From Fibrobacter succinogenes (GTDB lineage: Bacteria > Fibrobacterota > Fibrobacteria > Fibrobacterales > Fibrobacteraceae), in the NCBI GenBank assembly GCA_902762305.1, contig CACWNW010000003.1, forward strand, positions 62,001-126,000: a stretch of DNA of 64,000 nt, in the 5' to 3' direction. The position numbers and the translations under genes were made by a program. Below, in pieces: positions 26,742 through 36,419 of this stretch. The first letter of the stretch is position 1; every line of letters begins with the position of its first letter. A model generated the notes under the pieces. That model was not told the origin of the DNA. It was given only the letters and a program-made list of their open reading frames with translations, and did no database searches.

Positions 26742-26779
26742 CATTTACAAAATGTAAATGAATAAAAATTTACATTTTG
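26742..26779 (+). promoter_or_regulatory. Palindromic operator pair before the CE1 esterase
   Basis: CATTTACAAAATGTAAATG (26742-26760) is a perfect palindrome and matches the shared xylan operator at 14 of 18 positions against the GH43 copy at 61104. Overlapping it, CAAAATGTAAAT (26748-26759) is repeated inverted as ATTTACATTTTG (26768-26779) with an 8-bp spacer. A -10-like TGTATAG lies about 50 bp downstream. Confidence 0.6.
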
Positions 26780-26847
26780 GGGGCCGCTACAAAAAAGTAA
26801 ATTTGAAGGTGTATAGTTCATGTTGTTTGGAAAAAAAGGAGCAAAAA

Positions 26848-28317
26848 ATGAAATTTCCTCACATAATGGGCATTGCTAGCGCAATAGCAATGTCAAGTAG
26901 CCTGGCGTTCGCCTGGAGCATCAGCGGCGTGGTCATGACCAAGAATGGCATGCCGCTTCCGGGTGTAAAAGTCAACACATTCAACATCGGTGGTTTCGAG
27001 ACCACCACTTCCGACGGCGGTACGTTCAGCCTCAGTAGCGAAGCCTATGCCCTCGTCAACGCGAAGACTGCGAACCTCGCTATGCACATGGAAGGCAACA
27101 TGCTTACCATCTACAACGCAGATGCGAGCTCCTTCAAGGTGGCCGTGATCAATGCCTTGGGCAAGGTCCTCCTGGAAAACAATTTTGGGCAGGTTCAGGG
27201 AATCATTTCTCTCGACCTCGGCAAGTTCGCACGCGGAACCAAGTTCATCCGCATTAGTGCCGACAGCCAGAACAGTACGTTCATGGTGACAAGCACGGGC
27301 GTCAAGTCCCTCAAGAAGGAAGGCGACCAGCTGCCGTCGTTCCAGTTTGCCAAGGAAGGCTACCAGAATGTGATGTACCAGATGAAGGCTGAAGTCGAAA
27401 CCGACGTAGTGATTCAGATGGAACAGGGTACGACTCCTCCTCCGAGCTCCAGCAGCGCAGTGCAGCCCCCTCCGAGCAGCTCTTCGAAGATTGTCTCCTC
27501 GAGCAGCGAAGAAGTCGTCAACTGTTCCGGCAAGACGGCCAAGGCCGGCAAGCAGAACATGAGCGTGACGGTCGACGGCAAGAAGCGCACCTTCATCATG
27601 TACATCCCGAATTCCTACAAGGGCGACAAGCCAGTTCCTCTGTTTGTAGACTACCACCCGGTTATGGGAAATGGCGAAGGCCAATATAAAGACACTAAAT
27701 ACAGAACTCTTACAGAAAAAGAAGGAGTGATTTCGCTGTACCCCGATGGCACTAAGTCTGCGGACTCCCGCAAGATGGGGCCGGGTTGGAACGTGGGGCC
27801 GTGCTGCTCTGACGATGACGACGTGAAGTTCTCTCGCGAAATGATCGCCGCTGTCGAAGAAATCGCCTGCATCGACAAGAAGCGCGTGTACGCAGCCGGC
27901 TTCTCGATGGGTGGCGGCATGAGCAACCACGTGGCATGCTTCATGTCCGACATCTACGCCGCAGTCGCTCCGGCCGCTATGGACTTGAACACCACGAACA
28001 GCGCCAAGTGCAACCCCGAACGCCCGATTTCTATCATCATGTTCCGTGGCACGTCCGACCCCGTCTGCAAATACCAAGGTGGCGATAGCGGCTATGGCGA
28101 CGGCCTGAACTTCCTCGGTGCCGAAAGGAACTTCAAGTTCTGGGCAGAGAAGAACGGCTGCCAAGGTTCTCCGAGCAAGAACTCCAACGGCTGTGACGAA
28201 TACTCCAACTGCCAGGATGGCACGAAGGTTGTCCTCTGCACCAAGCAGGGCGGCGGCCACGATCAGGGCGACGGCAACATCGGCTGGCCGTTCCTGAAGC
28301 AGTTTACCCTCCCGTAA
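26848..28317 (+). CDS. Secreted CE1-type feruloyl/acetyl-xylan esterase
   Basis: A 489-residue secreted esterase. Signal peptide 1-22. Residues 23-80 resemble a carboxypeptidase-regulatory-like domain (SGVVMTKNGMPLPGVKV). Residues 85-148 look like a type IX sorting-type module (VAVINALGKVLLE ... TKFIRISADS) placed internally. Ser/Pro-rich linkers (about 197-221) lead to the esterase domain (about 226-489) with nucleophile Ser353 in AAGFSMGGGMS and a likely catalytic His in GGGHDQG. The family (CE1/LpqC-like) releases ferulate or acetate from xylan. The start at 26848 has AAAGGAG 7 nt upstream. It is divergent from GH10 gene 2. Confidence 0.88.
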   Translation: MKFPHIMGIASAIAMSSSLAFAWSISGVVMTKNGMPLPGVKVNTFNIGGFETTTSDGGTFSLSSEAYALVNAKTANLAMHMEGNMLTIYNADASSFKVAVINALGKVLLENNFGQVQGIISLDLGKFARGTKFIRISADSQNSTFMVTSTGVKSLKKEGDQLPSFQFAKEGYQNVMYQMKAEVETDVVIQMEQGTTPPPSSSSAVQPPPSSSSKIVSSSSEEVVNCSGKTAKAGKQNMSVTVDGKKRTFIMYIPNSYKGDKPVPLFVDYHPVMGNGEGQYKDTKYRTLTEKEGVISLYPDGTKSADSRKMGPGWNVGPCCSDDDDVKFSREMIAAVEEIACIDKKRVYAAGFSMGGGMSNHVACFMSDIYAAVAPAAMDLNTTNSAKCNPERPISIIMFRGTSDPVCKYQGGDSGYGDGLNFLGAERNFKFWAEKNGCQGSPSKNSNGCDEYSNCQDGTKVVLCTKQGGGHDQGDGNIGWPFLKQFTLP

Positions 28318-28347
28318 CACTTAGTAGTACCTCCTCGTTTGTTATGC

Positions 28348-28376
28348 CCCGCACGCAAGTGCGGGGCATTTTTTTT
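28348..28376 (+). terminator. Terminator after CE1 esterase
   Basis: GCCCCGCA-cgcaag-TGCGGGGC followed by ATTTTTTTT. Confidence 0.92.
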
Positions 28377-28396: not shown

Positions 28397-28425
28397 TTGC
28401 CAGGATAGACTGGTGTTCCTATATT
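28397..28425 (+). promoter_or_regulatory. Sigma-70-type promoter of trpBA
   Basis: TTGCCA (28397-28402), a 17-bp spacer, then TATATT (28420-28425). Transcription should begin near 28431-28433, on or next to the leader-peptide start codon. Confidence 0.8.
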
Positions 28426-28432
28426 TTGGCTC

Positions 28433-28489
28433 ATGAAGATGAATAGTGCAATCCGTTTCAACCGTTGGTGGTGGGGCTCTAGAACATAG
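28433..28489 (+). CDS. trpL: Tryptophan leader peptide
   Basis: An 18-residue peptide, MKMNSAIRFNRWWWGSRT, with three consecutive Trp codons at 28466-28474 followed shortly by a stop. It is too short for ordinary gene finding, but the Trp run and its place before an attenuator and trpB identify it. No Shine-Dalgarno precedes it and the promoter puts the mRNA 5' end at or next to the ATG, so translation may be leaderless. Ribosome stalling at the Trp codons when charged tRNA-Trp is scarce would set the fold of the downstream RNA. Confidence 0.85.
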   Translation: MKMNSAIRFNRWWWGSRT

Positions 28490-28561
28490 AGTCCGGTTTC
28501 GCCGTTTTCATCAAGAGATTTGTAAAAGGCTTTCGGACTCACCGAAGGCCTTTAATTTTTT
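28474..28561 (+). promoter_or_regulatory. Trp attenuator (strands 1-4)
   Basis: Four strands form alternative helices. Strand 1 GGGCTCT (28474-28480) pairs with strand 2 AGAGTCC (28488-28494). Strand 2 GAGTCCG (28489-28495) pairs with strand 3 CGGACTC (28534-28540) as antiterminator. AAAGGCTTTCGG (28525-28536) pairs with CCGAAGGCCTTT (28542-28553) and is followed by a T-rich tail as terminator. The leader stop codon touches strand 2, so a ribosome that finishes the peptide masks strand 2 and lets the terminator form. Confidence 0.85.
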
Positions 28562-28606
28562 ACCAGAAACCTTTAACCCTAAACCAATAAGACTAAACCT
28601 TAAACT

Positions 28607-28649
28607 AGATCCTTCGACTTCGGGCTTCGCCCTCCGCTCAGGATGACAC
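28607..28649. repeat. Dispersed-type palindromic element at the trpB start
   Basis: Begins AGATCCTTCGACTTCGGGC and ends CGCTCAGGATGACAC. It strongly resembles the widespread element whose reverse strand reads GTCATCCTGAGC-GAAG-type sequence. Its AGGA (28640-28643) lies 10 nt before the trpB ATG and may serve as its ribosome-binding site. Confidence 0.5.
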
Positions 28650-28653
28650 GAGA

Positions 28654-29931
28654 ATGAATATGACAACTTCTTCTAATAACGGTTTCTTTGACAAGTTCGG
28701 CGGCAAGTACGTTGCCGAAATCATCCGCCGTCCGCTCGATGACCTCGAAGCGGCATTCAACAAGTACATCCACGATCCGGAATTTCTCGAGGAACTGCGC
28801 ATTATCCAGCGCGACTACATCGGGCGCGAGACCCCGCTGTACTTCGCCCCGACGGCGACCGAACTCCTGGGCGGTGCGCAGATCTACATCAAGCTCGAAG
28901 GCCTTGCCAACACGGGCGCCCACAAGATCAATAACGCCATCGGCCAGTGCCTTTTGGCCAAGAAGATGGGCAAGACCCGCATTATCGCGGAGACGGGTGC
29001 CGGCCAGCACGGGCTCGCCACCGCCGCCGCCTGCGCGAAGCTCGGCCTCGAATGCGTCGTGTACATGGGCGAAGTTGACGTCCGTCGTCAGCAGCCGAAC
29101 GTGGCCACCATGGAAATGTACGGTGCGAAGGTCGTGCCGGTCACGAGCGGCAGCCGCACCCTGAAGGATGCCGTGAACGAGGCCATGCGCGACTGGGCAA
29201 CAAATTTCAAGAACACGCACTACGTGCTCGGTTCCGCCCTCGGCCCCGCCCCGTTCCCGGATATCGTTCGCACGTTCCAGTCCATCATCGGCGAAGAAGT
29301 CAAGCGCCAGGCTGCCGAACGTAACATCGACATCGCCGCGATTGTCGCCTGCGTGGGTGGCGGAAGCAACTCCATCGGCGTGTTCACCCCGTTTATCGAA
29401 GACAAGAACGTGCGCCTGATCGGTGCAGAAGCCGGTGGCATCGGCCCGAACATGGGCGAGAACGCCTCCCGCATGACGGGTAACGCGAGCCGCGAAGGAA
29501 TTGTGCAGGGTTACAAGAGCCGCTTCCTCATCGATGAAGACGGCCAGTCGCTGCCGACCCGCTCCATTTCTGCAGGGCTTGACTACATGGGTATCGGCCC
29601 GCAGCTCGCCGCCCTCGGTGAATCGGGCCGCGTGGAATTCACGAGCATCCTCGACAAGGAAGCGCTCGAGGCCGTGAAGTTCTTCGCCCGCAACGAAGGC
29701 ATCCTCTTCGCGCTCGAAAGCGCGCATGCCGGAGCCGCCGCCATGAAGATCGCGAAGGAACTCCCGAAGGACAAGGCTCTCGTCATCAACATGAGCGGCC
29801 GCGGCGACAAGGACATCTTTATCACGAGCCCGGTGTTCCGCCCCGAAAAGTGGAAGGAATTCCTGAAGGCGGAACTCAAGCGCCTCGAAAACAACGAAGA
29901 CATCCACGACGCGGAGATAATGAATAATTGA
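28654..29931 (+). CDS. trpB: Tryptophan synthase beta chain
   Basis: A 425-residue cytosolic PLP enzyme joining indole and serine to make tryptophan. The PLP Lys is in NTGAHKINNAIGQ, the phosphate loop is CVGGGSNSIG, and ETGAGQHG is the substrate motif; length and sequence fit the TrpB1 type that partners TrpA. The start is 28654 (or the in-frame ATG at 28660). It lies behind a 222-nt leader with attenuator. trpA follows after 73 bp of AT-rich repeats. Other trp genes are absent from the window. Confidence 0.95.
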   Translation: MNMTTSSNNGFFDKFGGKYVAEIIRRPLDDLEAAFNKYIHDPEFLEELRIIQRDYIGRETPLYFAPTATELLGGAQIYIKLEGLANTGAHKINNAIGQCLLAKKMGKTRIIAETGAGQHGLATAAACAKLGLECVVYMGEVDVRRQQPNVATMEMYGAKVVPVTSGSRTLKDAVNEAMRDWATNFKNTHYVLGSALGPAPFPDIVRTFQSIIGEEVKRQAAERNIDIAAIVACVGGGSNSIGVFTPFIEDKNVRLIGAEAGGIGPNMGENASRMTGNASREGIVQGYKSRFLIDEDGQSLPTRSISAGLDYMGIGPQLAALGESGRVEFTSILDKEALEAVKFFARNEGILFALESAHAGAAAMKIAKELPKDKALVINMSGRGDKDIFITSPVFRPEKWKEFLKAELKRLENNEDIHDAEIMNN

Positions 29932-30004: not shown

Positions 30005-30757
30005 ATGAACTTAATGTCTCATCTCATTGCCGGGTTCCCGGACGCAGAAACATCCATTGCCATTGCCGACGCCCTCGTGAAGGGTGGCGCCAACATCCTT
30101 GAAATCCAGCTCGCCTTCAGCGACCCGAGCGCCGATGGCCCTGCCATCCAGACGGCATCTACTGTCGCGCTTGAAAAGGGCTACTCCACCAAGCAAGGGC
30201 TTGAAGTTGTGAAGAAGATTCACGAACGCCACCCCGAAACGCCCATCTACATCATGACCTACGGCTCGCTCGCCTTCACTCCGGGTGTCGAGAACTTCGT
30301 GAAGATGTGCAAGGACGCTGGCGTTTCCGCCTGCATCATTCCGGACCTGCCGTTCGATTGCGACGAGGGCCTCACCGAAGCCTGCAAGAAGCACGGTCTC
30401 GAAAACATTCCGGTTGCAGCACCCAGCATGACGAAGGAACGCCTCGAAACGATGGCTTCAGCAGGGTTCAAGTACATCTATGCGGCTCTCCGTGCAGGCA
30501 CGACCGGCAGCGAAACCACGATTGACCAGGCAACGCTCGACTTTATCGACACCGTCGGTAAGGGTGGCGCAAAGGTGCTCGGTGGTTTCGGTATCCGCAA
30601 TGGTGAACAGTCCAAGGTTTTGAGCAAGCACGTGTACGCCGTGGTGGCGGGTTCCGTTTTCGTGAACATCGTGCTCGGAAACGGAGACTCTGCCGAAGGC
30701 CGCAAGAAGGCGATTGCCGAAATCGAGGCGAAGGCTAGGGAGTTGACAGGCGCTTGA
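30005..30757 (+). CDS. trpA: Tryptophan synthase alpha chain, short N-terminus
   Basis: A 250-residue TIM-barrel enzyme that cleaves indole-3-glycerol phosphate to indole. The catalytic Glu is in ILEIQLAFSD (E. coli LELGIPFSD) and Asp in SDPSADGP; the phosphate motif GGFGI is present. Compared with E. coli TrpA it lacks roughly 15 N-terminal residues (helix 0), and no upstream in-frame start restores them. The Shine-Dalgarno is weak (AAGAG). It is presumed co-transcribed with trpB. Confidence 0.93.
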   Translation: MNLMSHLIAGFPDAETSIAIADALVKGGANILEIQLAFSDPSADGPAIQTASTVALEKGYSTKQGLEVVKKIHERHPETPIYIMTYGSLAFTPGVENFVKMCKDAGVSACIIPDLPFDCDEGLTEACKKHGLENIPVAAPSMTKERLETMASAGFKYIYAALRAGTTGSETTIDQATLDFIDTVGKGGAKVLGGFGIRNGEQSKVLSKHVYAVVAGSVFVNIVLGNGDSAEGRKKAIAEIEAKARELTGA

Positions 30758-31860: not shown

Positions 31861-31944
31861 AGGCGTCGGCCAAGGATGGGGAGGGTGCAGGGAGGGGCCC
31901 GTGCGGCCTTCGCAACTCTGAGCTGGGGCCCCTCCCGCATCATT
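31861..31944. repeat. 84-bp hairpin repeat, copy 1
   Basis: Identical to 48757-48840 except for T/C at 31919. It contains an 11-bp perfect stem (GGGAGGGGCCC at 31890-31900 with its complement at 31926-31936) around a loop holding GTGCGGCCTTCGCAAC, itself a small hairpin. Here it lies between divergent genes. Confidence 0.85.
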
Positions 31945-32009
31945 TTCATACCAGACTTTAAAAGTTTTTTCTATCTTTTTTTCCGAAAAAAAACATAAAG
32001 AGGTCTATC

Positions 32010-35569: not shown

Positions 35570-36419
35570 AAAACTGACCTTGATCGGCCAGAAGTTCCAT
35601 GCCCTGGGCATGTTCCTGCTCCGCAGAAATGCAGGGCAAGAAGTCGCACTGTTTGTCCGCGCCATCGCCTCGATATTCTCCAAGAACAGAAGCTTCAAGG
35701 CGGATACGAAGAACATCATCTTGCAGACGTTCTTTACGGGCGTCGAAATCTTCCCCATCCTCTTCATCGTCGCCACCCTTTTCGGCACCGTCGTCATCAT
35801 CGAAGTCATTTCCCTCATGGGGAAGGTCGGCTTCTCCGACGTGGTCGGCGGGCTCATGGTGGTGGTTATCATCCGTGAACTCGGGCCTATCCTCACCGCG
35901 TTCCTCATCGCGGGCCGCAGCGGCTCGTCGCTTACCACATACATCGGCGGGATGGTCATCAATTCCGAAGTCGACGCGCTCGCGACCATGGGCGTGGACC
36001 CCATACGCTACCTGGTGATGCCCGGACTCATCGGCGGCTCCATCGCCACCTTCATCATGACCATCATCTTCAGTTCGAGCGCCATCTGCGCCGGATTCCT
36101 GATGACAAAGATTGCCATTTTCATCACGGGCAACGCCTTCAACGTACAGCTCACATGGAGCTACCTCTCCACGGAAATCCTCAAGGCGATGACGTTCACC
36201 GACTTCATCTTCATCGTGGTCAAGCCGCTCGTGTTCGGCTGCATCATCACCACGAACGCCTGCTACCAGGCGATGAACATTCCCCGCGATATCCGCCAGG
36301 TCCCGAAAGCGACCGGCAAGTCCGTCATCAAGTCCTTCTTCTATATCGTCTGCGCCGACGTGTTCATTTCGCTGTTCTACTTCATCGATTACTTTAACGA
36401 GATTTCGAAGATCATCTAA
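35547..36419 (+). CDS. mlaE: ABC transporter permease, MlaE family
   Basis: A 290-residue inner-membrane permease with five or six helices. RELGPILTAFLIAGRSGSS and EVDALATMGVDPIRYLVMPG are the signature stretches of MlaE/YrbE permeases that move phospholipids between membranes. The gene starts inside engB (23-nt overlap) and its stop overlaps the ATPase start (TAATG), so translation is coupled. The MCE subunit usually encoded with it is not adjacent; a candidate lies at 10340-11248. Confidence 0.9.
   Translation: MEVQANNKKLTLIGQKFHALGMFLLRRNAGQEVALFVRAIASIFSKNRSFKADTKNIILQTFFTGVEIFPILFIVATLFGTVVIIEVISLMGKVGFSDVVGGLMVVVIIRELGPILTAFLIAGRSGSSLTTYIGGMVINSEVDALATMGVDPIRYLVMPGLIGGSIATFIMTIIFSSSAICAGFLMTKIAIFITGNAFNVQLTWSYLSTEILKAMTFTDFIFIVVKPLVFGCIITTNACYQAMNIPRDIRQVPKATGKSVIKSFFYIVCADVFISLFYFIDYFNEISKII

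Follow-up and report, generated by a model that had tools for sequence, protein, structure and literature searches.

A predicted ribosome-mediated tryptophan attenuator upstream of trpBA in Fibrobacter succinogenes and its relatives in the Fibrobacteraceae

In the established anatomy of the Escherichia coli trp leader, a short open reading frame (ORF) with adjacent Trp codons ends at a stop codon beside the second of four RNA strands, which pair alternatively as 1:2, 2:3 or 3:4, the last of these helices being a T-tailed terminator. In Sinorhizobium meliloti, the leaderless rnTrpL/peTrpL system targets trpE(G), and both its RNA and its peptide have additional functions in trans (PMC7298713). 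Streptomyces lividans carries leaderless trpL1 (MFAHSTRNWWWTAHPAAH) and leuL leaders, and an alaL leader has been proposed before alaS (PMC8079986), whereas in Corynebacterium diphtheriae two Trp attenuators have been predicted, one before trpB1EDGC and the other before trpB2A (PMC1262725). Each part of the Fibrobacter system described here has a precedent in S. meliloti, Streptomyces or C. diphtheriae. We found no description of such a system in Fibrobacter in the literature consulted, which was mostly open access and did not extend to the survey published by Lopatovskaya et al. in 2010 (cited in PMC4833913). An earlier note on this DNA had placed the locus in a phylum far from the Proteobacteria, and indeed the Trp attenuator is apparently undescribed in Fibrobacterota, but attenuators of this kind had already been predicted in Actinobacteria (PMC1262725).

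The locus lies within a window of 64,000 nt, the whole stretch of F. succinogenes DNA that was analysed, and combines the sequence-level features of trpL-type attenuators: a leader ORF, alternative 2:3 and 3:4 helices, suitably placed control codons, and target genes for Trp biosynthesis, both of which score above the cut-offs of their TIGR models (Table 1). The TTGCCA-17-TATATT promoter and the 18-residue leader with three Trp codons that the earlier note had read from the letters are confirmed to the base, and the 1:2 hairpin, 2:3 antiterminator and T-tailed 3:4 terminator that it had proposed are all present, with computed energies that can now be attached to them. Besides helix 1:2 (Table 1), helix 2:3 joins 28489-28496 to 28533-28540 (-10.9 kcal/mol, or -14.4 kcal/mol if extended) and helix 3:4 joins 28525-28536 to 28542-28553 (-18.2 kcal/mol), followed by AATTTTTT; the three helices are mutually exclusive. 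We consider it very probable, from these sequence features and their conservation, that this is a ribosome-mediated transcription attenuator that senses charged tRNA-Trp and sets the expression of trpBA.

Table 1. Features of the trpBA attenuator region, in window coordinates.
Feature	Position	Strand	Basis
Intrinsic terminator belonging to the ORF upstream (26758-28317)	28344-28376	+	11-bp stem, T tail
trpBA promoter: -35 TTGCCA (28397-28402), 17-nt spacer, -10 TATATT (28420-28425)	28397-28425	+	sequence
Predicted transcription start (A of the leader ATG)	28432-28433	+	promoter spacing
trpL-type leader peptide ORF, MKMNSAIRFNRWWWGSRT*, 18 residues	28433-28489	+	translation
Three consecutive Trp (TGG) control codons	28466-28474	+	sequence
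Strand 1 (GGGCUCUA), pairs with 28487-28494 (helix 1:2)	28474-28481	+	-12.3 kcal/mol; also in relatives
Strand 2, overlaps the leader stop, partner strand 1 or strand 3	28487-28496	+	helix search
Strand 3, 28533-28540 to strand 2 (antiterminator), 28525-28536 to strand 4	28525-28540	+	compensatory changes
Strand 4 of the terminator hairpin	28542-28553	+	12-bp hairpin; 32 compensatory cells over 44 leaders
AATTTTTT tail, predicted termination point 28561	28554-28561	+	sequence, terminator scan
trpB, first regulated gene	28654-29931	+	TIGR00263, 546 bits against a cut-off of 392
trpA, second regulated gene	30005-30757	+	TIGR00262, 193 bits against a cut-off of 102

The terminator of the upstream gene insulates the trpBA promoter, which is kept as TTGNCN-17-TANNTT in nearly all relatives. 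At the other end of the region, the TrpB start may be 28663 instead of 28654, since similarity to relatives begins at residues 4-6 of the protein. The distance from leader to trpB differs widely among relatives. Between the terminator and trpB, ATCCTTCGACTTCGGGCTTCGCCCTCCGCTCAGGATGACA (28605-28652) resembles a dispersed palindromic repeat, the exact core of which has only one copy in the window.

The likeness to E. coli trpL extends to the short ORF with adjacent Trp codons, the four strands with their three pairings, the stop codon beside strand 2 and the T-tailed terminator. The earlier note's statement that the geometry matches that of E. coli is accordingly right as regards strands 1-4 and the stop codon, but not the 5′ end, where the Fibrobacter leader is predicted to have neither a 5′ untranslated region nor a Shine-Dalgarno site before its ATG. 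The Fibrobacter leader also has three Trp codons rather than two, and its predicted targets are trpBA, while trpE is preceded by a homologous copy of its own. The Rfam Trp_leader family (RF00513) gave no match to the leader at the gathering threshold or at E values up to 5, and nothing relevant appeared in either Rfam scan.

The anatomy of the trpBA attenuator is not due to chance. The whole leader RNA has a stability z score of -3.3, with none of 200 shuffles as stable, and the combination of a short ORF containing WW, a terminator and a promoter occurs in the window at a single locus (the 28397-28561 region) and in none of 40 simulated windows, in which a terminator alone arises at 0.025 per window. 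The scan script scored the TGGTGGTGG run of the trpBA leader twice, although this is one locus; a separate TGGTGGTGG at 35857 is unrelated to the attenuator. Hairpins are common at gene ends, and one lies just upstream at 28344, so that the hairpin at 28525-28561 might be read as an unregulated or partial terminator that happens to follow an accidental short ORF with three Trp codons. We judge this reading to be extremely unlikely, given the simulated windows, the homologous module found also before trpE, and the persistence through divergence of the Trp run, the stop position and the exclusive 1:2 and 2:3 helices, with compensatory changes and in leaders of varying length.

That persistence, the check in relatives that the earlier note had proposed, was examined by searching for TrpB in 80 genomes of the genus and 168 of the phylum and reading the regions upstream of the matches. 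Both the Trp run and the helices proved to be conserved. An intact Trp leader precedes trpB at 53 of 56 loci in the genus and at all 6 loci of a sister genus (g6). The leader peptides vary in length and sequence (for instance MMLNSAIHNNQWWWGSLT, MKMINVLCENFDGRWWRGL, MQNVKSINRWWWRT and MKNVKNNNRWWRRA), and every leader recovered, in a search that demanded at least two, has two or three adjacent Trp codons beside strand 1. At the three genus loci without an intact leader directly before trpB, a deletion has removed the -10 box and leader start (L043; possibly an assembly error), the leader precedes trpCF and not trpB (L102), or the region is cut by a contig end (L031). At one further locus, the leader is intact and the T tail of the terminator has been lost together with the first trpB codons (L047; again a possible assembly error).

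Helices 1:2, 2:3 and 3:4 were recovered in essentially all trpB leaders by an independent helix search of each leader. In an alignment of 44 leader sequences that includes both trpB and trpE leaders, 88.8% of cells in helix 2:3 are paired and 11 cells are changed on both sides, compared with 3.1 in shuffles, whereas helix 3:4 has 87.4% of cells paired and 32 changed on both sides, compared with 12.5 in shuffles; none of 500 shuffles reaches either observed count, but the shuffles ignore relatedness, which makes a control with slid partners the more telling. When the partner strand is slid by at least one column, the pairing of both helices falls sharply. As an example of compensation, GAGUCCG/CGGACUC is replaced by GAGUCUGG/CCAGACUC. 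These counts cover helices 2:3 and 3:4, because MAFFT sets strand 1 out of register between clades. RNAalifold returned no consensus pairs for the gappy 44-sequence alignment, a result that is probably due to the alignment gaps, and for this reason the named helices were counted and each leader was searched separately. The trpE leaders of the genus carry one mismatch in helix 2:3. In the trpE leaders of g6 (L084, L085, L095 and L096), the peptide WWWRTSESEFAC continues through strand 2 and the stop codon follows that strand, a different geometry.

In the trpBA leader of the window, the Trp codons (28466-28474) abut strand 1 and the TAG stop codon (28487-28489) forms the first 3 nt of strand 2, which bears out the earlier note's claim that the stop touches this strand. 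By the usual reasoning from the ribosome footprint, this placement fits the masking of either strand 1 or strand 2 by a ribosome. In the mechanism that we propose, transcription would start at or next to the leader ATG, and a ribosome would load on the 5′-terminal AUG without a Shine-Dalgarno site; hairpin 1:2 would then pause the polymerase, allowing ribosome and polymerase to synchronise. When Trp-tRNA is scarce, the ribosome would stall at the three Trp codons and cover strand 1, such that 2:3 forms, the terminator cannot, and trpBA is transcribed. With ample Trp-tRNA, the ribosome would reach the stop codon and cover strand 2, such that the 3:4 terminator forms and transcription ends near 28561. 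The homologous attenuator before trpE would control the rest of the pathway. We infer the response to tryptophan, the translation of the leader and the exact start site from sequence.

Genes for tryptophan synthesis are also known to be controlled by the TRAP protein, by TrpR-like repressors and, through uncharged tRNA, by T-boxes, and the availability of these routes raises the question of whether such a sensor could be at work here, with the leader ORF playing a secondary part. We found no T-box or other Rfam family in the window, and none for the leader region at E values up to 5; the leader shows no evident array of repeats resembling TRAP sites, and its conservation falls on the Trp codons and on strands 1-4. 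On the evidence of the Rfam scans and the leader sequence, sensing by a protein or by uncharged tRNA appears very unlikely to us, and we retain the reading in which the translating ribosome is the sensor.

The -10 box of the trpBA promoter is separated from the leader ATG by 7 nt, as read directly from the sequence. When the 150 nt upstream of each leader ATG were scanned without constraint for their best promoter, the -10 box lay 6-7 nt from the ATG in 101 of 107 distinct leaders, compared with 1 after shuffling. Because the box sits at this distance, the leader ORF is predicted to be leaderless, with transcription starting at or beside the ATG, and this proximity, which the earlier note had overlooked, leaves no room for a 5′ untranslated region or a Shine-Dalgarno site. 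The arrangement TTGNCN-17-TANNTT-6/7-ATG is also observed at ordinary long genes of the same genome (L283-L299), with 31 matches compared with 9 in the control. The sharing of this promoter-ATG geometry by many long genes suggests that leaderless initiation is normal, and leaderless mRNAs common, in this organism.

A Trp leader ORF that begins at the 5′ end of its RNA, as predicted in Fibrobacter, is a likeness to S. meliloti, where, as a point of difference, the target is trpE(G) and both RNA and peptide act in trans. Termination at the Fibrobacter attenuator is predicted to release a leaderless transcript of ~129 nt, and a product of precisely this kind operates in S. meliloti (PMC7298713). 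This terminated RNA might thus serve as a leaderless mRNA acting in trans, through its peptide or as RNA, besides its attenuation in cis. The peptide stretch IRFNRWWWGS is kept across much of the genus, as such a role might lead one to expect, but peptides from different genera, and those of trpB and trpE leaders, diverge strongly and have only the Trp run in common, which argues against a conserved peptide function. We regard an additional role in trans as possible but unlikely; attenuation in cis is the function that we assign to the leader.

The same genome carries a second Trp leader (MVNATSTIFNRRWWRGL), homologous to the first, in front of trpE-trpGD-trpCF on a different contig (L083:8241, minus strand; G000:C8). 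A sequence model of the attenuator recovers the trpBA and trpE copies and no other true copy in this genome; a third, weak match (C28:138, E 0.005) lacks a leader ORF and is an ordinary terminator. The earlier note had held that the attenuator controls only trpBA. This stands for the locus itself, as trpBA in the window species sits apart from trpE and ends before a converging gene, but it does not extend to the pathway, given the homologous attenuator before trpE, or to other species of Fibrobacter, in some of which the leader lies inside the cluster as E-GD-CF-[leader]-B-A (L088 and L101) and in others of which it heads B-A-E-GD (L089 and L090). In the assembly of the window genome, trpE is broken into two frames (L083:6633-8031, minus strand) and is intact in relatives; the break could have arisen in assembly or through a recent mutation. 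The genome also encodes a second, distant TrpB-like enzyme with 36% identity (L002; G000:C4:137588-138619).

Most genera of the family have a Trp leader before trpE, and so does a neighbouring family. WW-type leaders before trpE were not found outside the order Fibrobacterales or in genus g4 of the same family, and the few short WW ORFs seen there are taken as chance. Genera g5, g7 and g9 have an unsplit operon, E-GD-CF-B-A, with a leader only before trpE, and provide a natural control: where trpF lies directly 5′ of trpB, a leader is present before trpE and none before trpB. As the unsplit-operon genera have the leader only before trpE, the simplest reading is that the trpBA attenuator is probably a duplicate of the trpE attenuator. 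Within a genome, the trpB and trpE leaders share 86-91% identity in one clade and 74-83% in the other genus members examined, and the higher identity in the former hints at later exchange. C. diphtheriae likewise has two predicted Trp attenuators per genome, of which one sits in front of a trpBA unit, but there trpB itself is duplicated, whereas Fibrobacter has one trpBA with its own attenuator copy, and relatives with the unsplit state.

The genome was also searched with the pattern TTGNCA-N16-18-TANNTT-N5-8-ATG, which gave 9 matches compared with 2 in the control; four of the nine are leader peptides, namely those of trpBA and trpE, a Leu leader and an Ala-rich leader. The Leu attenuator lies before leuA and consists of the putatively leaderless leader MRKNLNLRLLLCIAHGARF and a terminator (L174; G000:C2:180602-180640, minus strand), and most of the family's genera that were examined also have Leu-rich leaders before leuA. 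The candidate Ala attenuator (L178:1501-1760; G000:C11:98645 onward) consists of the Ala-rich, putatively leaderless leader MNKIFGQNLAAAAIAASPAAARAIMGLSRETKICKA and a T-tailed terminator, and is kept in the genus only. Its alternative helices, identified by eye, are GCAGCCC (the Ala codons) with GGGCUGU, GGGGCUG with CAGCCCC, and the terminator GCAGCC/GGCUGC with its T tail. The gene that follows encodes a PRK06855-type aminotransferase, the second-best match being an alanine aminotransferase model, and we found no earlier report in the literature consulted of an aminotransferase as the attenuator target of an alanine-codon leader. S. lividans resembles this set in having leaderless trpL and leuL and a proposed alanine leader; it differs in that trpL1 precedes trpE alone, alaL precedes alaS (which encodes alanyl-tRNA synthetase) and not an aminotransferase gene, and the phylum is another. 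Upstream of hisE in the window there was no sign of a His leader. A long GC-rich inverted repeat, GGGAGGGGCCC...GGGGCCCCTCCC (31880-31950), lies upstream of hisE, after an oppositely pointing gene.

Taken together, we put forward, as a proposal whose chances we judge to be even, that the attenuators of the Fibrobacteraceae, two responding to Trp and one each to Leu and Ala, form a regulon built on leaderless ORFs. In this view, an intragenomic copy of the Trp module would have given trpBA a checkpoint of its own apart from trpE and, in some species, an internal attenuator of the trp cluster, and an Ala-codon leader would control an aminotransferase. The promoter geometry that led to the Leu and candidate Ala attenuators offers a way to search for further examples. 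The present evidence places Trp attenuation of the textbook kind, supported by covariation, in Fibrobacterota, where the family presents a natural series for the duplication of an attenuator on operon splitting, from a single leader before an unsplit operon, through an internal second leader, to a detached trpBA with a leader of its own. If the leader ORFs are leaderless, these attenuators would also test whether the coupling of ribosome and RNA polymerase in attenuation can dispense with Shine-Dalgarno loading.
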